Shown in pieces: positions 19,692 to 28,979 of a DNA stretch of 28,979 nucleotides. The DNA comes from a virus. The number at the start of each line of letters is the position of its first letter. Position 1 is the first letter of the stretch. The stretch covers positions 1 through 28,979 of the IMG/VR virus record IMGVR_UViG_3300027902_000025; one strand, written 5' to 3'. The translations under genes and the position numbers were made by a program. Below the pieces are notes generated by a model. The model was not told the DNA's origin, did no database searches, and saw only the letters and a list, made by a program, of their open reading frames with translations.

Positions 19692-20162
19692 ATGAAAAAT
19701 TTATTGTCCAACATACAAGCCCGTTTGAGCGACCAGATCTCTTATCTGCCAATGAGAGACCAAACCCTTCACGCGATATTCATCGTGCCGGATGAAAACG
19801 ATCTGCCTCCGGAAGCGGATTTCCCGTGTTTTGGCCTGAAGGATGGACCGATCTCATACGATATTAAACCCGGGTCCCGTGGAGAAACGCTTGTAGTCAC
19901 GATCATCGGTTACGTCATGCTTCCGGAAAAAGAGGCATCCATCATGGGCAAGGACGAAATTCCGGGCGCGCTGGACCTGATGAACGATGCGAAGAACGCC
20001 CTGGACAATTGGCTGCCGGATGGGTTCAGCTCTGCATATATCGTTGCCGAAACCGCGAGCGTGCGGCTGATCAAAATGGACCCGACGGTTGCGCAGGACC
20101 AGTGGCCGTTCTTGCAGAAAAAAACCGCGACATTCAAATACTGGCGGGAAGTCATTTTATAG
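19692..20162 (+). CDS. Tail terminator candidate
   Basis: This 156-residue soluble protein begins MKNLLSNIQARLSDQI and has alternating strands and helices, with DFPCFGLKDGPI, then ETLVVTIIGYVML and a late ALDLMNDAKNALDNWL helix. It shows no clear family signature. It lies between the Mu G-like morphogenesis gene and the tail tube gene, the usual place of the tail terminator in long-tailed phages, and the fold pattern is compatible with that. The leader upstream (19648-19691) contains two copies of TAAGAAGGAAGAA. Confidence 0.55.
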   Translation: MKNLLSNIQARLSDQISYLPMRDQTLHAIFIVPDENDLPPEADFPCFGLKDGPISYDIKPGSRGETLVVTIIGYVMLPEKEASIMGKDEIPGALDLMNDAKNALDNWLPDGFSSAYIVAETASVRLIKMDPTVAQDQWPFLQKKTATFKYWREVIL

Positions 20163-20173
20163 CGGAGGTGCAT

Positions 20174-20380
20174 ATGGCACGAATAAAATATACAGGCCCG
20201 GTTGACCCGATGCGGATACCGGGAATAGGACCCGTGGGAAAGGATTGGATACCATGCCCTGATAATATCGCGTGGGAGTTTATAAATACAACAGGTTTTG
20301 TCGTTGAACTTGATCAAAAGATTGGATCGCCTGTTGTATCTGATTCTGTAAAAAAGATCAAGGGAGGTGACGACAAATGA
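20174..20380 (+). CDS. Small hypothetical protein before the tail tube gene
   Basis: GGAGGT at 20164-20169 fixes the ATG at 20174; upstream codons of the same frame are shadow. The 68-residue product begins MARIKYTGPVDPMRIPGIGPVGKDW and has a strand-rich centre, DNIAWEFINTTGFVVELDQK. The pattern of short beta strands resembles small head-tail joining or decoration proteins. Its stop overlaps the start of the tail tube gene. Confidence 0.6.
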   Translation: MARIKYTGPVDPMRIPGIGPVGKDWIPCPDNIAWEFINTTGFVVELDQKIGSPVVSDSVKKIKGGDDK

Positions 20381-21552
20381 GCACCGCAACCACAATCGCA
20401 TTCGGCAGGAACACCAAGGTATTCGCCAAGAAAGAGACCACGCCGGGAACCTTAGTCATTCCCGCGACGGGAGACATGATCGTCGTCAACTCCGGCGAGA
20501 TACAGGTCCCGAACCCGACGTTCGTGGACGATAAGGGCGTGCGCGGATCGCGTTCCGATTTCAACCGGTACACGGCTAACATCCCGGGCGCGCCGTTCAA
20601 GCTTCAACGGTATGTCCGGCCATCCGGGGCCACAGGCACAGCGCCGGAAGCGGATTGCGTGTATGAATCCGCACACGGGTTAAAGACCGTGGTTGGGGGC
20701 ACCAGCGTGACCTACAGCCCTTTGGACACGCAGCCGAGTTTTTCACTCTACATAAAAAAAGACCACACGGTCTACGTGGCGGCCGGATGCGTGATCGATA
20801 AATATGTCCTGAAAAAAGACAACAAGGACCTGCTCGAGGTGAGCGACGACGGCAAGGGATTCAATGTGCTCTGGACCGGCACCGGCAGCTTCGGCATCGC
20901 GATCGGCACCACGCCGGCGCCGGGCACCCAGGAAGAATGGCTGGTGGACGATACGAAAAAGTGGTGCGTAGGCTCGCACATCATCTGCGATACCGAACAG
21001 ATGCAGGTCGTGGGCACGGACTGGCAGAGCTCCGCAACGGCCACCAAGATCAAGGTCGCCCGCGGATACAACGGCAGCACTGTGGCCACGCATTTGATCA
21101 ACGCCGTGATCTTGCCGTATCTGCCGACCGGGACCGAAACCGGCGCGCCCCTGGCCGCGCGCGTGGGCACGATGACGATCGCCGCCTCTTCCATCCCGTT
21201 CCTGGACATAGACTTCAACTATGCGAACGCCATTTCCCAGAACGAAGAGGAAGTGACCGGGACCATCACGCCCACGGATTACTTCGAAGGCGACCGCACG
21301 GTCACGGGCACGATGTCGATCTATTTCCGGAAGACGGACCTGAAATGGTTCGCGGATGCGATCCTGCAGACCCGGAAAGCCGTGGTCCTGAATTTCGGAT
21401 CCATCGCCGGCAAGATGGTGCAGATCACCCTGGCGTCCTGCGAATTCGACATGCCGACATATGCCGGAGACAAGGACGTGATGAAGCTCTCGGTGAAGTA
21501 CAAGGCCTTTGCCGTTTCCGGGAATGATGAAGCGACGGTGAAGTTTTTGTAA
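20377..21552 (+). CDS. Tail tube protein of a long-tailed phage
   Basis: The 391-residue protein has the layout of siphovirus tail tube proteins: an N-terminal FGRNTKVFAKKETTPGT block, then PNPTFVDDKGVRGSR, a beta-barrel stretch, a less conserved insert at about 150-245 with KIKVARGYNGSTVATH, and a closing FDMPTYAGDKDVMKLSVKYKAF with the strands of the tube interface. It polymerises into the tail tube. It lies directly before the frameshifted chaperone gene, as in lambda V and G/T. Ribosome binding site AGGGAGGTGA. No sheath gene is present, which supports a non-contractile tail. Confidence 0.8.
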   Translation: MSTATTIAFGRNTKVFAKKETTPGTLVIPATGDMIVVNSGEIQVPNPTFVDDKGVRGSRSDFNRYTANIPGAPFKLQRYVRPSGATGTAPEADCVYESAHGLKTVVGGTSVTYSPLDTQPSFSLYIKKDHTVYVAAGCVIDKYVLKKDNKDLLEVSDDGKGFNVLWTGTGSFGIAIGTTPAPGTQEEWLVDDTKKWCVGSHIICDTEQMQVVGTDWQSSATATKIKVARGYNGSTVATHLINAVILPYLPTGTETGAPLAARVGTMTIAASSIPFLDIDFNYANAISQNEEEVTGTITPTDYFEGDRTVTGTMSIYFRKTDLKWFADAILQTRKAVVLNFGSIAGKMVQITLASCEFDMPTYAGDKDVMKLSVKYKAFAVSGNDEATVKFL

Positions 21553-21671: not shown

Positions 21672-22136
21672 ATGGATCTAACAACACTCAAGAAAAAAAC
21701 ACCGACCACGGCCTGGTTCGATTTTACGGACAATGTCCGGGTGCAGCTCCAGTATGTGGACCCCGCCGAGATCCGCAGGATGGTGCAGGTCTGCACGAAG
21801 ACCGTGAACGGCCGGGAAGAATTCGACCAGGAAAAGGCGCTGGTCGAGATGGCCAAGCGGATCCTGGCCTGGGAAGGATTGACCGTCAAGATCGCTTCCG
21901 GGCTCATGTCGCTCGATATTCCCGAGGGGCAGGAAGAATCGATCGTGCCCTGCACCGAGGTGAACAAACTCGCGCTCCTGAAGGAGAGCTGGGACTTCAA
22001 GCCGTTCGTTGAGAACCGAACAACGCGGCTGGCGGAATTCCGGGCCGTTCAGCAGGAGTCGGAAAGAAAAAACTCGCAGAGTTCGCCGACTGGACCTTCT
22101 TCGGCGGACTCAGTTGCGACGACTGCAAAGCAGTAG
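21672..22136 (+). CDS. Tail assembly chaperone, short form (lambda G analogue)
   Basis: AAGGAGG precedes the ATG. The 154-residue in-frame product begins MDLTTLKKKTPTTAWFDF and contains VQLQYVDPAEIRRM and a helical C-terminal half, which suits a tail assembly chaperone of the lambda gpG kind. At residues 132-134 the mRNA has the slippery heptamer A AAA AAC, after which the zero-frame product continues only with a Ser/Thr-rich stretch (NSQSSPTGPSSADSV) to the stop at 22134-22136. Chaperones of this type bind the tape measure protein during tail assembly. Confidence 0.82.
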   Translation: MDLTTLKKKTPTTAWFDFTDNVRVQLQYVDPAEIRRMVQVCTKTVNGREEFDQEKALVEMAKRILAWEGLTVKIASGLMSLDIPEGQEESIVPCTEVNKLALLKESWDFKPFVENRTTRLAEFRAVQQESERKNSQSSPTGPSSADSVATTAKQ

Positions 22137-22399
22137 AACAGGATGCGGGGGTCCTGCCGCCCTGCAAGACCGAAGAAAGTTGCAACAAGCCGGGCCTGCA
22201 TCCAACGAATATCGAAGTATGGGAGATCTATTGCAGGATCAGCGACCAGATCGAGATGTACCAGGTCAACCAGACCAAGACCCATATCCTGCTCCGGGCG
22301 GAGGCGATCAAGGCGGTGATCGATATCGTCGGTCCCGAGGATCCGCTCGAGACGTTCGACCGGGTGATGCTGGTGCATAAGATCAGGTATCCGGAATGA
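21672..22399 (+). CDS. Tail assembly chaperone, -1 frameshift form (lambda GT analogue)
   Basis: A -1 shift at 22067-22073 carries translation into the frame that ends at TGA 22397-22399. The new C-terminus reads KKLAEFADWTFFGG, then CDDC, CKTEESCNKPGLHP and a VWEIYCRISDQIEMYQ segment, and looks fully coding. The fusion would have 242 residues. The T-like domain has its own cysteines and a NKPGLHP turn found in other phage tail proteins of this position. There is no good start codon for an independent gene in that frame, so frameshifting is the natural explanation. Confidence 0.85.
22067..22109 (+). promoter_or_regulatory. Programmed -1 ribosomal frameshift signal
   Basis: Slippery heptamer AAAAAAC (22067-22073) lies in the correct phase (A AAA AAC). 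A 7-base spacer follows, then GTTCGCCGA (22081-22089) pairing with TCGGCGGAC (22101-22109) in a 9-bp stem with one T-G wobble and an 11-base loop. Confidence 0.88.
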
Positions 22400-22465
22400 A
22401 GCATGATATCCGAAGACGACATCTGGTGTGAACTTGGATGCCCGCCGCAGAGGAGGAAAAGGACG

Positions 22466-22999
22466 ATGATCGATACGAGCACACGACGACCGAATCTTGA
22501 TGAGAAGCAGAAACGGGTCATCGAAAATATTGAGCCGTATACCCTGGGCATGGACCTGATCTGCACCCGGGGACACAGCACTCCCGGGGAACAACTCGAC
22601 ACGATAGAAAAGTTGGCAGCCAACAACAAGGTTCATTTTCCCGAGTTTCAATCCGGGAACCTCGAGGAAATAATCGATATCCCGGACGTCGGGAAGGGCT
22701 ATCGTTGGCAACGGACCCACAGCCATTTATTGAATATCGGAGTAATCGTTAATCCACCCCTTGAATGCACGATCCTCGAGGATTACATCCGGCCGAACGG
22801 AGAAAACATGAAGGGCGAGACCATGCAGCCCTCGCCGCACATTACGAGCGATCCGATAGATTTTTCAAGCCGCGTCAACGGCGTGCCGCATCTCGATCTG
22901 GTGGTCAGCATCATGACCCGCGCCAAGGCCGCCGGCGCCGGCATACGATATATCAAACCGGAACCGAAGAACGGTTGTGTGCATGTGGATATAGCTTGA
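22466..22999 (+). CDS. M15-like zinc peptidase, probable endolysin
   Basis: AGGAGG at 22451-22456 lies 9 bases before the ATG at 22466, so I chose it; an in-frame ATG at 22403 would add 21 residues but has a weaker site. Near the C-terminus the segment SPHITSDPIDF has the spacing of the M15 motif S-x-H-x2-G-x-A-x-D, giving His and Asp zinc ligands, and CVHVDI would be the second zinc histidine as in W-H-V-D. The glycine and alanine of the usual motif are Ser and Pro here. M15 enzymes cut peptide bridges of peptidoglycan. Neighbouring membrane proteins support a lysis role. The stop codon is within a CTTG repeat. Confidence 0.6.
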   Translation: MIDTSTRRPNLDEKQKRVIENIEPYTLGMDLICTRGHSTPGEQLDTIEKLAANNKVHFPEFQSGNLEEIIDIPDVGKGYRWQRTHSHLLNIGVIVNPPLECTILEDYIRPNGENMKGETMQPSPHITSDPIDFSSRVNGVPHLDLVVSIMTRAKAAGAGIRYIKPEPKNGCVHVDIA

Positions 23000-23030
23000 C
23001 AGCTTGCAGGCTTGACAGCTTGCCAGCGTG
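22993..23030. repeat. CTTG-type intergenic repeat cluster 2
   Basis: AGCTTGACAGCTTGCAGG and CTTGACAGCTTGCCAG in tandem; the first CTTGA supplies the stop codon of the peptidase gene. Bases 23006-23026 equal 21623-21643. Confidence 0.8.
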
Positions 23031-23040
23031 AAAACGAAAA

Positions 23041-23274
23041 ATGGATACATTAGTCAACATAGCGACGTTCCTGGCCAAGGGGAAATTCATCATGTGGATC
23101 TATACGATCAACATGGTGACTTTGTCCTGGTATGCGACAGTAAAGGAAATAACAATCGATGGCAGTATTGCCGTGATGTACAGTGCGGCCTTGTCAACAT
23201 ATGTACTATCCAAGGGGCATGAGCTTTACGAGAAGCGACAGTCTCTTAATAAATCACCCGGAGAATCGCAATGA
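23041..23274 (+). CDS. Holin-like membrane protein
   Basis: The 77-residue product shows two membrane segments, FIMWIYTINMVTLSWYATV at about 16-34 and GSIAVMYSAALSTYVLSKG at about 41-59, and a charged C-terminal tail (HELYEKRQSLNK). Two-helix proteins of this size next to a peptidoglycan peptidase are commonly holins. There is no strong ribosome binding site before the ATG, but the start is close to the end of the repeat cluster. It overlaps the next gene by four bases. Confidence 0.6.
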   Translation: MDTLVNIATFLAKGKFIMWIYTINMVTLSWYATVKEITIDGSIAVMYSAALSTYVLSKGHELYEKRQSLNKSPGESQ

Positions 23275-23687
23275 AAAAATCCATCATAATTTTTATTATC
23301 TTTTTATTCTTCGCCTGCGCGCCGAAGTTCATCACGCACCCGATCGAGACGAAAACCAAGACCGGCGATGCCGTGACCGTGATAACGCCGAAACAGATAG
23401 GAAGCAGGCAGGATGTGCCGGTAGGTTGGAAGCCCGCGGACACGATCATCATCAAGCAGCAGGGAAAGGCCGAGACCTATGTGAATAAAAAAACCGGAGA
23501 GGTCGCGCAGAACGCTCCGGCTCAGGCGATCACGCAATCGATCGAAACTCCGAAGAAGTCCTGGGCCTGGGCCTGGTGGACCGGCGGGATCCTCGGCGTA
23601 TTGGTTTTGATCAATTATCTTCTTAATTCCTTTTTCGGAGTGAACCCGTTCGGATGGATCGGTAAAAAAATATTCAAAGGAGGATAA
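23271..23687 (+). CDS. Membrane or lipoprotein, spanin-like candidate
   Basis: The 138-residue protein has an N-terminal hydrophobic signal (SIIIFIIFLFFAC) with a cysteine at residue 16 that could be lipidated, although FFAC is an imperfect lipobox. A polar middle region follows and then a second membrane segment near residues 104-122 (WWTGGILGVLVLINYLLNSF). Its place behind the holin-like gene suggests a spanin or other envelope protein. No family is recognised. Confidence 0.6.
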   Translation: MKKSIIIFIIFLFFACAPKFITHPIETKTKTGDAVTVITPKQIGSRQDVPVGWKPADTIIIKQQGKAETYVNKKTGEVAQNAPAQAITQSIETPKKSWAWAWWTGGILGVLVLINYLLNSFFGVNPFGWIGKKIFKGG

Positions 23688-23689
23688 CG

Positions 23690-23794
23690 ATGCTGACTAT
23701 CACTTTAATTGGCGCGGCCTTTGTGGCCGGCGTGCTTCTGAGCGACAAGATCAAGAACGCCCTGGTCGCTGCGTATAAAAAGATATTCACGTAA
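23690..23794 (+). CDS. 34-residue membrane peptide
   Basis: AAAGGAGGA (23677-23685) gives an excellent ribosome binding site. The product MLTITLIGAAFVAGVLLSDK followed by IKNALVAAYKKIFT is one short hydrophobic helix with a basic amphipathic tail. It is a typical small phage membrane protein, perhaps assisting the holin. Confidence 0.65.
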   Translation: MLTITLIGAAFVAGVLLSDKIKNALVAAYKKIFT

Positions 23795-23819
23795 TAATTT
23801 TATTTGGAGGTAAAAAGCA

Positions 23820-24794
23820 ATGGAAAGAATCAGCTATTCTCCACGGCTGGGAAAACATCCAAAGAAGTTCGATCATCGTACGCTGCAGTTCGCGCGTTAC
23901 ATGCCCAAACTGCCGACGCCGCCGACGGCAACCGACCACGCTTCGAAACTGCCGGCAAATATCGGCATGATGGGGAACGACACTTATGGCGATTGCACGG
24001 TCGCGGCCGCGGGGCATATGGTCCAGAGTTGGACTGCGTATGCCGAGCGAGGCATCGAGACCTTATCCGATGCGGATATTCTTGCTGCATATGATGTCAT
24101 ATCTCCGAACGACCAGGGCGCGTATATGCTCGATGTGCTGAACTACTGGCACAAGACCGGCATCGGCCCGGACAAGATCGAGGCATTCGTTGAAATCGGC
24201 ATCGCGGACCTGATCCAGGCGAAGTTGGCCATCGAATACTTCGGCTCGTGTTATATCGGCATGTCGCTGCCCGACGTCAACACGTTCGGCCCCTGGACTA
24301 CGCCTACCGGCCCACCTGATCCGTACAATGGGCATGCGGTATGCCTCATTGCGTATGATGATGCAAAGAAGATGTTCAAGGTCTGCACCTGGGGCGAGAT
24401 CTGGGACATGAGCTATGCGTGGTTCCAAAAATACATGGACGAAGGATACGCCGTGCTGAATGATATCGAGATCATCACGGCAACCGGTAAGAGTCCGGAA
24501 GGATTCGACTTCGCCACGTTGCAGGCGGACCTGTCGCATATCGGCGATCCGGTCACGCCGCCCACGCCCGTCCCGCCGACGCCGCCCCCGGTACCGCCGG
24601 CTCCGACTCCGGTGTTGGCATTCACTGCCGTGGTCAGCCCGCATTATATTTTGACACTGGGAGGGGTCATCCAGAAGACGACCTACGCATCATCGATGGA
24701 AGCCGCCGAGCATGCCGCCAATTTCAAATTGGCAAACAAGACCAAAGACGTTTATTTCGACGTTGTCGGTCGATGGAAGGTGACGGCCAAATGA
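23820..24794 (+). CDS. Papain-like cysteine peptidase with proline-rich hinge
   Basis: Residues about 45-225 have the features of C1-like cysteine peptidases: NDTYGDCTVAAAGHM with the likely nucleophile Cys59, GHAVCLIAYDD with His172, and CTWGEIW at 189-195 in the place of the N-S-W-G motif. A hinge of repeated Pro-Thr/Val-Pro (about 246-264) leads to an 60-residue C-terminal domain with AEHAANFKLANKTKDVY. There is no signal peptide. Targets could be host envelope proteins, phage proteins or defence factors; the sequence cannot say. The asparagine of the usual triad seems replaced. It overlaps the nuclease gene by four bases. Confidence 0.72.
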   Translation: MERISYSPRLGKHPKKFDHRTLQFARYMPKLPTPPTATDHASKLPANIGMMGNDTYGDCTVAAAGHMVQSWTAYAERGIETLSDADILAAYDVISPNDQGAYMLDVLNYWHKTGIGPDKIEAFVEIGIADLIQAKLAIEYFGSCYIGMSLPDVNTFGPWTTPTGPPDPYNGHAVCLIAYDDAKKMFKVCTWGEIWDMSYAWFQKYMDEGYAVLNDIEIITATGKSPEGFDFATLQADLSHIGDPVTPPTPVPPTPPPVPPAPTPVLAFTAVVSPHYILTLGGVIQKTTYASSMEAAEHAANFKLANKTKDVYFDVVGRWKVTAK

Positions 24795-25180
24795 ACCCGC
24801 CGAATATCAGCTTTCCCTATTGGTATTACGCCGGCTGCTTCAATGTGGTGGACGGCGATACCTATGATCTGCAGTTCGATTTCGGCATGATGCTCTGGCA
24901 GAAAGACCGGTTCCGCGCCTACGGCATCAACGCCCCGGAGCTGACCAGCAAAGACCCGGTCGTGCGCGCGCAGGCGCAATTGGCAAGGCAGTTCTGTATC
25001 GACCGGATACTCGGCCGGACCATCGAGAGCAAATCGCTCATCATCAACACGCACCTCGACAAGCGGGAGAAATACGGCAGGATCCTCGCCGATGTCTACT
25101 ATTGCGATGCCTCTGGTGTGTGGTCATGGTTGAACGACGAGCTTATCCAGGCCGGGCTGGCCGTGGTATATCTGCCGTAA
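24791..25180 (+). CDS. SNase-like (thermonuclease) nuclease
   Basis: The start at 24791 overlaps the upstream stop (ATGA) and follows GGAAGG. The 129-residue protein matches the staphylococcal nuclease fold: VVDGDTYDL with the calcium ligands Asp21 and Asp23, FRAYGINAPE with Arg42 and Glu50, and KYGRILADV with Arg97, the equivalents of the Arg35, Glu43 and Arg87 active site. A WLNDELIQAGLAVVY tail is also typical. It cuts DNA or RNA with calcium. No signal peptide is visible, so it would act in the cytoplasm or be released at lysis, for instance on host nucleic acid. Confidence 0.82.
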   Translation: MNPPNISFPYWYYAGCFNVVDGDTYDLQFDFGMMLWQKDRFRAYGINAPELTSKDPVVRAQAQLARQFCIDRILGRTIESKSLIINTHLDKREKYGRILADVYYCDASGVWSWLNDELIQAGLAVVYLP

Positions 25181-25185
25181 ACGGA

Positions 25186-25242
25186 ATCGCTTTCAAGCTG
25201 GCAAGCGTGCAAGCTATCAAGCCTGCAAGCTTTCAAGCAGAA
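25186..25242. repeat. CTTG-type intergenic repeat cluster 3
   Basis: TTTCAAGCTGGCAAGCGTGCAAGCTATCAAGCCTGCAAGC and similar units fill the gap between the nuclease and the next gene, mostly in the reverse sense (CAAGC) of clusters 1 and 2. Confidence 0.75.
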
Positions 25243-25253
25243 AGGAAGTTAAA

Positions 25254-25700
25254 ATGGACTATCTAATCGGAATCATCACAAGCATTCTCATCCACTGGCG
25301 GGACAATCCTTTTGACATGGTTGTTGAGATATTCATGTCTGGAGTATGGACGCTCGTGGTCACCTGGCTATTCTGGGGCCTGTACGTGATGGGTATGGGG
25401 CTGCAGCGCGAGATGGATACGCTCAAGGCGCAGGGCAAGGACTTCACGTTCACGCAGAAGACGCTCGCCGGGCCCTGGGTGAGCCTGCTGGTGATCGTGG
25501 ATGTTGTGTTTCGGTTTACCTACGGCATTTTGATCTTTTTCCCGGACCTACCGAGGGAACTGACATTTTCGCAGCAGCTTGAGCGGCTCCTGAGCTACGG
25601 CAAAGGGTCCTGGCGATATAAGTTGGCGTTCTGGCTCGCATCGGAGCTGATCAATCCGTTTTCGGCGGGCGCGCCGCATATTCGGACGCCGCTGGAATAA
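25254..25700 (+). CDS. Phage membrane protein
   Basis: The 148-residue protein has hydrophobic stretches near residues 26-47 (IFMSGVWTLVVTWLFWGLYVMG) and 77-97 (LLVIVDVVFRFTYGILIFFPD). Between and behind them are amphipathic regions, ending in FSQQLERLLSYGKGSW and ASELINPF. It resembles a family of small membrane proteins of unknown function found near lysis genes in phages of proteobacteria, with the DLPRE and NPF blocks. Its role is unknown. Confidence 0.6.
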   Translation: MDYLIGIITSILIHWRDNPFDMVVEIFMSGVWTLVVTWLFWGLYVMGMGLQREMDTLKAQGKDFTFTQKTLAGPWVSLLVIVDVVFRFTYGILIFFPDLPRELTFSQQLERLLSYGKGSWRYKLAFWLASELINPFSAGAPHIRTPLE

Positions 25701-25730
25701 AAAATAAAAGATTGCAACTAAGGAGGATTT

Positions 25731-25901
25731 ATGATTCAGCTTACCATCACGCTAAATGACAACAAGACGATATCGGTTACCGGACCGATCGATGATAAAT
25801 TCATTTGCTATGCCTTATTGGAATCGGCAAGGGATGTGATCAAGGATTATAAGCCATCCGCCATTGTGGCGCCGGACCAAAATCTCACATTTCGTAACTA
25901 A
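25731..25901 (+). CDS. Small hypothetical protein
   Basis: AGGAGG lies at 25721-25726 before the ATG. The 56-residue product, starting MIQLTITLNDNKTISVTGPI, is two beta strands and a helix (ICYALLESARDVIKDY) with no known motif. It is short but has a strong ribosome binding site and lies between two real genes at normal spacing. Confidence 0.7.
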   Translation: MIQLTITLNDNKTISVTGPIDDKFICYALLESARDVIKDYKPSAIVAPDQNLTFRN

Positions 25902-25917
25902 ATAGGAGGTACTATTC

Positions 25918-26457
25918 ATGGGTAGACAACTATTTCAGGATGGGCCATATGTTGATCCTCCTGTATCGTCTCCGACTGCTCTTACGTCAACGTCTGCGGA
26001 GGCTCTTTGGATAGGCGCAACGTTCACACCGATCTTTGCGAATGATCCAAAGGCAGGAAAGATTTACTGCGTTCGCGCAGGTGGCATCATGTCAACCGGC
26101 GCATCGGGGACGCTGATCTTGATCCCTCAGTATGGTGCGCTTGGAGGCACGACACTCGGCTCATCACAGACCGTTACCATGCCTATCAACATGACAAACG
26201 TGGCGTGGTATCTGCAATTCGACCTGGTGTTCCGTATCATAGCGGCTGGTTCTAACTCAACCTGCATAGGATCAGGGATGTTCGTGACGGCTCCGTATGC
26301 GTCTGCTCCCGCTGCTGGACTTTCGTGTGTCATTCCGTTTGGTGGAACGTCGGCAACTGTGGACGCAACTGCAAACTCAGGCATCACGATCTCAAAGACG
26401 TTGAGCGTTGCAGGTTCGATGACCATGAACTATGCGTATATATTCTCAAGGAATTAA
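25918..26457 (+). CDS. Virion surface or tail protein, jelly-roll-like
   Basis: The 179-residue protein has alternating strands with Thr, Ser, Gly and Ala, and segments FTPIFANDPKAGKIYCV, GTLILIPQYG, WYLQFDLVFRIIAAGSNST and GITISKTLSVAGS. The arrangement is common in phage minor structural proteins of the fibre region. It has an AGGAGGT site upstream. Exact position in the virion is unknown. Confidence 0.65.
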   Translation: MGRQLFQDGPYVDPPVSSPTALTSTSAEALWIGATFTPIFANDPKAGKIYCVRAGGIMSTGASGTLILIPQYGALGGTTLGSSQTVTMPINMTNVAWYLQFDLVFRIIAAGSNSTCIGSGMFVTAPYASAPAAGLSCVIPFGGTSATVDATANSGITISKTLSVAGSMTMNYAYIFSRN

Positions 26458-26459
26458 AC

Positions 26460-26789
26460 ATGCAAGCAATCAATGTTGTGCCAGGAGTTCCGAACACACC
26501 GGTTCATGCATTTGATTGTTTCATGGAAGTGTCTGCAAACTTCTATGAGAGAAATTATACAATCAACGGCGTGACAAAAGACGCAGGAGGCACAGCTCTT
26601 GGTCTGTGTACCGTTTATCTGTTTTGCATGAGTTCGGGCGTGCCTGTGCTTACCCTAACCACCATATCCGACGTGAACGGAAACTATTCATTCGTTGTCG
26701 ATAAAACGCTGGTATGGTGGGTCGTGTCTTATCTTATAGGAACGCCTGATGTGGTGGGGGCAACCGTAAATAATCTGGTCGGGGTATAA
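26460..26789 (+). CDS. Fibre-region protein with Ig-like beta sandwich
   Basis: The start at 26460 lies two bases after the previous stop. The 109-residue protein contains ERNYTINGVTKDAGGTALGLCTVYLF and TTISDVNGNYSFVVD. This is the pattern of the small beta-sandwich domain of the carboxypeptidase regulatory type (G-V/I-x-D-x2-G followed by T-x-S-D-x-N-G-x-Y-x-F) that phages often use in fibres. No transmembrane segment. Confidence 0.65.
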   Translation: MQAINVVPGVPNTPVHAFDCFMEVSANFYERNYTINGVTKDAGGTALGLCTVYLFCMSSGVPVLTLTTISDVNGNYSFVVDKTLVWWVVSYLIGTPDVVGATVNNLVGV

Positions 26790-26805
26790 GTAGAAAGGGG
26801 AAATC

Positions 26806-27156
26806 ATGGCAAAGCAAATAATCGTGCTTGGAGTGACTTCAAATATCGGCGGCGAGTATTCCGTGAATGTCGCTTTCTGGTATCCGGTCGCCTCTGGTGA
26901 GGAGTTTCCGCTTCCCGGCAGATCGTCGGAATATAAAGGCGCAACATTGGACGAACTGACAGCGCTCCGGGTCGGATCGGTAATCGAAGAAGTACGGGGA
27001 TATATTGTCCCGTCGAGTTATACCGTCGCGCAGGTGCAAGCATTTTTGCTTACCATCTATCAAGCAAAAGTAGCATACATAAACACAAAGCCCGCCGTGG
27101 GGAATTTCTATGGATATAATTTCGACGGTTCTGCGTGGAATAATATTCACGGATAA
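26806..27156 (+). CDS. Fibre-region hypothetical protein
   Basis: A GAAAGGGG site precedes the ATG. The 116-residue protein begins MAKQIIVLGVTSNIGGEYSVNVAFWYPV and has a helical second half around VAQVQAFLLTIYQAKVAYI. No family recognised. It is in the block of small virion-surface genes. Confidence 0.65.
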   Translation: MAKQIIVLGVTSNIGGEYSVNVAFWYPVASGEEFPLPGRSSEYKGATLDELTALRVGSVIEEVRGYIVPSSYTVAQVQAFLLTIYQAKVAYINTKPAVGNFYGYNFDGSAWNNIHG

Positions 27157-27160
27157 GTAA

Positions 27161-27844
27161 ATGGCTATAGTTCCTAGAGCAGCGTATTCAGCGGAATCGA
27201 ACGCAGTCGCCAGCGTAGTCGTGCAGGCCGATGATTTAATTGTCGTCATATATAGTTTTGGTGTTAATGCAACGCCGACATGCTCGGACAATGCAAATGG
27301 TGGAACGAATACTTATACGCAGGCGGGCATTTCTCAGGGAACTGCGGATGGAACTGCTTGCACCGTCATAAGTTTTTGGGCAAAAGCAAAAGCGAGTGAG
27401 ACGCTTACTATAACATGCACATCCGAAACTGCCCCTGTTATCGCGGTGCATGTTTACTCGGGCGCAAATATAACTGCTCCGGTTGATGGATTTACAGCCA
27501 AGACCGATTCATCCGACACCACGTCTCACACATCAGGCACGGACAATACGGGCAACGCAAACGATGTGCTTGTTTGCGGATGGTATCAGATCAACACCGC
27601 AGAAACCCCGACAACGAGCGGCGGATGGACGCGGAGAACGCTTCAAAACTCAGGATATGGGGAAACGGCATGCAGTTGTGATTATATCGTATCTTCCACC
27701 GGGGCCTATAGCTGCCCCTTGAACGGAACGTACAGCGTTGAATATGTCAGTTTGATTGTAGGGTTCAAAGCGTTGGACGGCGGCGGGCGGTATACGGTTC
27801 CCGGGCTTAATGTCCCGGTTTTTAACAAGCAAGGTGAAACATAA
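27161..27844 (+). CDS. Fibre-region beta-rich protein
   Basis: The 227-residue protein is rich in Thr, Ser, Ala and Val: SVVVQADDLIVVIYSFG, TCSDNANGGTNTYTQA and CTVISFWAKAKASETLTITC read as a beta sandwich like those in phage surface proteins and some secreted adhesins. No catalytic motif is visible. It overlaps the next gene by one base. Confidence 0.65.
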   Translation: MAIVPRAAYSAESNAVASVVVQADDLIVVIYSFGVNATPTCSDNANGGTNTYTQAGISQGTADGTACTVISFWAKAKASETLTITCTSETAPVIAVHVYSGANITAPVDGFTAKTDSSDTTSHTSGTDNTGNANDVLVCGWYQINTAETPTTSGGWTRRTLQNSGYGETACSCDYIVSSTGAYSCPLNGTYSVEYVSLIVGFKALDGGGRYTVPGLNVPVFNKQGET

Positions 27845-28806
27845 TGTCGGTAATGAATATAAAACTTGTTGATCCAACAACAGCGCCGGGCGGCGGAGCT
27901 GCTGCCCTTGCGGCTTCTGTTTCCTGCGTTGTCACGGTCAGCGCAGCACTCACAACCTCGATCCCCCTGGCCTCCTCGGTATCCTGCGTTGCAACGATCA
28001 GCGCCCAACTCACCACCTCTATCAACCTGGCGTCTTCGGTGGCCTGTGCAGTCACGATCAGCGCCCAACTCACTACCTCCATCAACCTGGCGTCTTCGGT
28101 GGCCTGTGCAGTTACGATCAGCGCCCAACTGACGACGTCGATCACCCTGGCATCCTCGGTGGCCTGCGCGGCAACGATCAGCGCCCAGCTCACGACGTCG
28201 ATCACCCTGGCATCCTCAGTGACCTGCGTTGTCACGATCAGTGCAGCACTTACCACAGCGATCACTCTCTCGTCGTTCGTATCCTGTGTATGTACAATCA
28301 ATGCGACGCTCACGTCGGGGGCCGATACTGCTTTGACCGCATCTGTGTCCTGTGTTGTCACGGTCAGCGCAGCACTCACAACGTCGATTCGACTGGCTTC
28401 CGCAGTCAGTTGTCTTGCGACGACGAGTGCGGCGCTTACGACGTCGATCGCCCTGGCTTCCTCGGTGGCCTGCGCAATAACCACGAGTGCGGCGCTTACA
28501 ACGTCGATTACCCTGGCATCCTCGGTGGCCTGCATTGTTTCGATCAATACCCAGCTGACGACGTTCATTCGTTTGGCAGCCCAGGCAACCGTCGCCTGTC
28601 TCACAACTGCCGATCTGACCACCGCGATTCCTTTTGTTCTGCCGGCGCACAGGAATGTCTTCATACTGGACGATGCCTATCGGGCATTCTCGCTCGATAA
28701 AAAGTCGCGGCAGTTCCCGATCGATACGAAACAACGCTCATTCATAAACGACAAAACGCGAAGGAAATTCACACTCGATACCAAGCGGAGGGTGATCAAT
28801 GCCTGA
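27844..28806 (+). CDS. Repeat-built tail fibre-like protein
   Basis: The 320-residue protein is mainly twelve 20-residue repeats (residues 22-264) of the kind LASSVACAVTISAQLTTSIN. A cysteine stands at repeat position 7 in the first eleven copies and one or two places later in the last. The C-terminus (residues 270-320) changes to five nine-residue repeats of the kind RQFPIDTKQ. The strict repeat length suggests a beta-solenoid or stacked beta fibre. It lies in the fibre block and may be the shaft of a receptor-binding or side fibre. Repeats 3 and 4 are almost identical in DNA, so the array probably grows and shrinks by recombination. Confidence 0.75.
   Translation: MSVMNIKLVDPTTAPGGGAAALAASVSCVVTVSAALTTSIPLASSVSCVATISAQLTTSINLASSVACAVTISAQLTTSINLASSVACAVTISAQLTTSITLASSVACAATISAQLTTSITLASSVTCVVTISAALTTAITLSSFVSCVCTINATLTSGADTALTASVSCVVTVSAALTTSIRLASAVSCLATTSAALTTSIALASSVACAITTSAALTTSITLASSVACIVSINTQLTTFIRLAAQATVACLTTADLTTAIPFVLPAHRNVFILDDAYRAFSLDKKSRQFPIDTKQRSFINDKTRRKFTLDTKRRVINA
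27907..28635 (+). repeat. Twelve 60-base coding tandem repeats
   Basis: Unit LASSVACAVTISAQLTTSI at DNA level about 60 bases. Copies at 27967-28266 are most alike; copy 7 is diverged and is followed by two extra residues that shift the register before copy 8. Confidence 0.85.
28681..28806 (+). repeat. Nine-residue C-terminal repeats (R-x-F-x-x-D-x-K)
   Basis: RAFSLDKKS, RQFPIDTKQ, RSFINDKTR, RKFTLDTKR and the partial RVINA; a related RNVFILDDA precedes them. Basic beta-strand repeats of this kind may cap or anchor the fibre. Confidence 0.7.
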
Positions 28807-28979
28807 GCCTCTCTACCTGAAGAAAAACGATCTGCAACCCTATTATAACACCATCAATGCTCGTTATCGCAGTCCGCAGCTAGGCAATCAACTGGACGTT
28901 ACTGCCTTTACTGAACAGGTTTACAGTTATTGGTTAAACAATCATGGCTATGGCATACAGCAGATTACTGTAAGTGATA
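28799..28979 (+). CDS. Virion-region hypothetical protein, 5' end
   Basis: The ATG at 28799 overlaps the end of the previous gene and lies behind GGAGGGTG. Sixty codons are visible to the window edge without a stop, starting MPEPLYLKKNDLQPYYNTINARYR and ending near GIQQITVSD. No motif is recognised. It continues past the window. Confidence 0.6.
   Translation, partial: MPEPLYLKKNDLQPYYNTINARYRSPQLGNQLDVTAFTEQVYSYWLNNHGYGIQQITVSD

Follow-up and report, generated by a model that had tools for sequence, protein, structure and literature searches.

A probable lambda-type G/GT programmed -1 ribosomal frameshift in a phage tail assembly chaperone gene of IMG/VR record IMGVR_UViG_3300027902_000025

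In a 28,979-nucleotide stretch of viral DNA (positions 1 to 28,979 of IMG/VR record IMGVR_UViG_3300027902_000025, referred to as the window), we identified a junction between a tail assembly chaperone gene, G, and a T domain in the -1 frame which, with a probability that we put at about 95% from the sequence and its relatives, is a lambda-type G/GT programmed -1 ribosomal frameshift. Frameshifting of this type is already known, and the window adds another case. All parts of the window signal that can be read in the letters fit the lambda-type scheme, although, unusually, the window has no tape-measure gene directly after T. Under the proposed mechanism, most ribosomes would translate G and stop at 22136, giving a protein of 154 aa, and a minority would slip back by one base at A AAA AAC while AAA and AAC occupy the ribosome, probably helped by a hairpin beginning 5 nt downstream, and would then read the -1 frame to 22399 to give a G-T fusion of 242 aa. 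If the roles known from lambda carry over to this phage, G would coat the tape-measure protein, and the T domain of the less abundant G-T would recruit the tail-tube protein, with the tube polymerising around the tape measure.

Gene G (21672-22136, + strand) encodes its 154 aa in the zero frame as 134 aa up to the slip site and a 20-aa tail. Its product matches phrog_313, "Tail assembly chaperone" (E 6.6e-11; E 6.2e-07 for the pre-slip part alone), and the gene lies directly downstream of the major tail (tube) protein gene (20377-21552, +; PF18906 Phage_tube_2, E 7.9e-13), supporting the tail-chaperone identity that an earlier note, made from the letters of the window, had assigned to it. The G protein is 42% identical to the G of locus L185 and 33% identical to that of L187. 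An AlphaFold model of G has a mixed fold at moderate confidence (76.7), and a fold search of this model against the PDB returned nothing significant.

The zero-frame codons AGA AAA AAC at 22065-22073 place the slippery heptamer A AAA AAC (22067-22073, +) in the phase X XXY YYZ within ORF 21672-22136, in agreement with the earlier note. Our scan of 30 window ORFs, which were chosen by hand, found 19 in-phase heptamers over 8318 positions, and only the one at 22067-22073 has a -1 ORF that passes the zero-frame stop. The heptamer is followed by a spacer of 5 nt (22074-22078, +) and a hairpin (22079-22111, +) with an uninterrupted stem of 11 bp, including one G-U pair, formed by 22079-22089 and 22101-22111 around a loop of 11 nt (22090-22100). 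The loop is thus as first described, but the 9-bp stem and 7-nt spacer of that description, which counted the inner 9 bp, are replaced by the longer stem and shorter spacer given here. In the minimum-energy fold of the signal a further 5 bp are formed, in which the spacer is paired with 22115-22119. The 47-nt hairpin stretch folds at -24.8 kcal/mol (z -4.5), with 0 of 200 shuffles as good, and z is -2.97 and -2.32 for longer stretches of 55 nt and 121 nt, respectively.

The -1 frame has no stop from 22013 up to the one at 22397-22399, so that the post-slip product has 108 residues (22073-22396) and the T domain consists of 108 codons plus stop (22073-22399, +), with no usable start. The first ATG, GTG or TTG in this frame is the ATG at 22256, and starting there would drop the first 61 residues of T. 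The codon-usage score of 22139-22399 is +48.7 bits in the -1 frame vs -70.0 and -47.6 bits in the other forward frames; this score, the length of the product and the existence of homologues bear out the proposal that the -1 frame encodes a protein-like domain of about 108 residues lacking a start of its own. From dN/dS values below 1 in 6 of 6 pairs (0.08-0.39, with dS saturated in some pairs), T evolves under purifying selection. The window T had no match in Pfam and only a weak similarity to phrog_680 (E 0.11); its AlphaFold model is mostly helical, with moderate confidence (mean pLDDT 77.6), and a PDB fold search with the predicted model gave nothing significant. Beyond the slip site, the zero-frame G has a further 16-27 residues in the window and in loci L182, L183, L186, L188, L172 and L031, and since G continues in the zero frame, this stretch (22074-22136 in the window, and its counterparts in the six relatives) is read in two frames. 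The zero-frame residues encoded there are mostly rich in Ser, Gly, Pro and Ala.

Scanning viral_contigs with the single proteins G, T and tail tube yielded no relatives, and tblastn searches of phages with G and T, at E 0.01 and 0.1, found none either. Because these direct searches with G and T failed, relatives were gathered via the major capsid protein and then by phmmer with the tail tube and T. Homologues of the window tail tube were found in L020, in L031, which is from a Desulfovibrionaceae genome, and in L118-L120, L031 and L118-L120 sharing the window tail-tube family; L031 also gave a T match, and A AAA AAC precedes a -1-frame T in both L031 and L118. Further T scans, together with Erythrobacter phage XM05 (L171), brought the number of distinct T loci to 21 besides the window. 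A T profile run over all the collected loci matched 52 ORFs, comprising 33 of phage type, 11 chromosomal, 6 of DUF1799 type, L193 and XM05. Duplicate and near-identical loci were merged by eye, which reduced the 33 phage-type matches to 21 distinct ones (window included), or 22 with XM05; L193, a weak partial T match with a stop, was left out of the counts. The six DUF1799-type matches, in the capsid-relative loci L044, L032, L110, L078, L149 and L042, each have an in-phase heptamer upstream. The closest capsid relative, L003 (83%), has no homologue of the window tail tube, G or T, and contains a homologue of the window's gene at 19692 followed by an ORF that is amidase-like by eye. Klebsiella phage ST405-OXA48phi1.3 has a phrog_313 gene but no in-phase heptamer in its last 200 nt, and no T was found there.

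All 21 other distinct T homologues adjoin a G-like ORF, and every one of the 22 distinct loci has an in-phase slippery heptamer where G meets T, at the same place as in the window in each of the 21 others. Conservation of the heptamer in relatives, which had been named beforehand as a check on the proposal, was thereby verified. Since the T loci were found by T similarity and not by the heptamer, this count is not circular, but the 22 loci are related by descent and cannot be taken as independent events. Outside the junction, these G genes carry motifs of this class at 14 of 2613 codon positions. The junction heptamers are A AAA AAC (14 loci), G GGA AAC (4), A AAA AAU (2) and A AAU UUG (2). 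This variation bears on transcriptional slippage, in which RNA polymerase would slip on the six-A run present at 22067-22072 and some mRNAs of altered length would fuse G and T. A run of six A is short for such slippage, and the G GGA AAC and A AAU UUG junctions (4 and 2 of the 22, respectively) have no long homopolymer, yet fit the pattern for ribosomal slipping. That the letters of the motif vary while the slippery pattern is kept argues for selection on slippage and against a transcriptional origin, which we consider very unlikely. The A AAU UUG motif, with G in the last place, falls outside the strict heptamer consensus as it is outlined in PMC10885494.

The same set of loci allows two further explanations to be weighed. 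T might be made as a separate protein, either from a start codon of a non-standard kind or by ribosomes that re-initiate after terminating at the end of G: the non-standard codons ATT (22037) and CTG (22154) are present in the -1 frame of the window, and 5 of the 22 loci have a standard start codon upstream of the heptamer in the T frame. This explanation is less probable again, given that the T frame has no such start upstream in the remaining 17 loci, that the window has no ATG, GTG or TTG before 22256, that the heptamer is kept in all 22 loci, and that T homology starts at or beside the first post-slip residue. The frame change might also be a sequencing error or the trace of a single decayed gene, as could be imagined for a record that is a linear virus fragment, but G and T are offset in the same -1 sense in each of the 21 other distinct loci, which come from different genomes and phages, and purifying selection acts on T; we regard this as the least likely of the alternatives to a programmed -1 frameshift, with a chance close to nil.

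For the hairpin that would assist the -1 ribosomal slip, the 55 nt after the heptamer at the 22 sites have a mean z of -1.65 vs -0.22 in 110 control windows taken from these loci, a difference with p 7.6e-5 when kinship among the loci is ignored, and z is below -2 at 9 of the 22 sites vs 8 of the 110 control windows. The hairpins of L186, L187, L183, L173, L118, L168 and L171 are no stronger than shuffles, and covariation among 8 sequences in one common register does not exceed that of controls. The expectation that the stem would be conserved in relatives therefore holds for many loci, which have strong hairpins, but not for all. With the hairpin weak or absent in several loci and covariation not in excess, it is not a fixed element of the clade; a hairpin that is clear in the window and a tendency in the clade is well supported by these folding predictions.

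All of the 12 aligned T sequences share four cysteines, C15, C18, C31 and C37 in window T numbering (codons within 22115-22183, +), as well as L42 and N46. This four-cysteine module is probably a zinc site; the predicted T model has low confidence in the cysteine region. Two of the 12 aligned T sequences match DUF1799 (PF08809; best E 1.2e-06), and one Phage_TAC_18; matches to zinc-ribbon models are weak and confined to single members. On this profile evidence the window T appears to be related to DUF1799 T domains at a distance only. The T of XM05 is a Phage_TAC_18 protein (E 5e-14) without the four cysteines. The T regions of HK639 (L018, 11222-11530) and of XM05 (L171, 2501-2932) are unannotated in their records, and the XM05 record places an antisense hypothetical gene over the T region.

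The 11 chromosomal T matches (L195-L202 and L205-L207, from genomes of one class) are single-frame ORFs of about 200 aa where complete, and none has a heptamer at the corresponding junction. In profile comparisons with 7 rows, the C-terminal half of this family, which is T-like and carries the four cysteines, matched T with a probability of 96.3% (E 2e-09); the comparison of the N-terminal half with G was not significant. The neighbours of the family are host genes rather than tail genes: 8 of the 11 loci have a recJ homologue, named by eye, and 10 of the 11 have CoA-binding and methyltransferase genes. Relatives with an independent T start and no slippery heptamer were what the earlier note held would speak against a frameshift, and this heptamer-free family, although it was found, sits among host genes and not among tail genes. 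These chromosomal proteins are possibly a domesticated tail-chaperone domain. We suggest, tentatively and at somewhat less than even odds, that the T domains of the clade form a class of their own, marked by a zinc-binding four-cysteine module that starts shortly after the slip site, and that bacteria took over one member of this class, now encoded in a single frame on the chromosome next to recJ and perhaps a domesticated G-T fusion.

Among tail genes, the annotation of T5-like phages resembles an independent T start. The G of these phages is weakly similar to the window G (phmmer E 4e-6 to 2e-3) and belongs to phrog_313; the second chaperone ORF belongs to phrog_3914, is annotated with its own start and sits before the tape measure, and a single profile, phrog_313, spans both halves. 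In 9 of 9 examined phages (L024-L028 and L208-L211), the second ORF occupies the +1 frame and stays open back into G through the junction, where the end of G reads UUU CGU (7 phages) or UUU CGA (2 phages), a motif present once per gene and solely at this position in all nine. The reading upstream of the annotated second-ORF starts aligns among most of the phages. The uninterrupted +1 ORF and the conserved UUU CGN within it suggest not independent initiation but a shift of a different kind: a +1 (or -2) frameshift at this junction is likely on the sequence comparison, and the separate starts annotated for the second chaperone are probably wrong. An animal virus is known to use a +1 site that resembles UUU CGN. 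In the excerpts returned by a literature search, we found no published account of a +1 (or -2) tail-chaperone shift in T5-like phages or Demerecviridae, or of the UUU CGU site.

Downstream of T, the next ORF (22403-22999) encodes 198 aa, the longest hand-picked ORF has 324 aa, and neither profile matches nor the hand-picked ORFs reveal a tape-measure gene directly after T in the window, up to 28979. The record is classed as linear and is possibly a fragment, so the tape-measure gene may lie beyond the window end. Among the 22 loci, an ORF of at least 400 aa begins just after T in 14, many such ORFs being cut by the locus end. The stretch 22403-28979 contains the 198-aa ORF, which is peptidase-like by eye, a nuclease (PF00565) and other small ORFs, and a C-5 cytosine DNA methylase gene (PF00145, E 9.2e-42) is present at 876-1856.

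These findings add to the tail chaperones a little-annotated phage group whose second product is missed by gene finders. Homologous junctions with four heptamers and varying hairpins can serve to find out which elements a -1 signal requires, and the four-cysteine module with its chromosomal relatives offers a starting point for learning how T acts and if it has been put to new use by bacteria.

Like lambda, the window has a chaperone gene after the tail-tube gene, a heptamer near its 3′ end and a -1 T domain without its own start. Unlike lambda, in which the slippery heptamer is G GGA AAG, the window has A AAA AAC, a strong hairpin, a four-cysteine T module and no tape-measure gene directly after T. 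The lambda G/gpG-T programmed -1 frameshift is described in Levin 1993 and Xu 2004, 2013 and 2014, as cited in the review PMC5009743, whose account of lambda has G and G-T binding the tape-measure protein, T recruiting the tail-shaft protein, and a ratio of G to G-T of approximately 30:1. T5-like phages share with the window a weakly similar G and a second domain in another frame, but there UUU CGU or UUU CGA, and not a -1 heptamer, precedes a second ORF in the +1 frame. In Acinetobacter phage Loki, an AAAAAAC motif beside the tail-chaperone stop is mentioned in PMC5313236. Escherichia phage HK639 (L018) resembles the window in its in-phase A AAA AAC, with a -1 ORF of 102 aa that ends at the tape-measure start, and differs in that its T is a DUF1799 domain (E 1.1e-16) with no cysteine module. 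The same layout of A AAA AAC and then T is present in S-LBS1, where T is again a DUF1799 domain.
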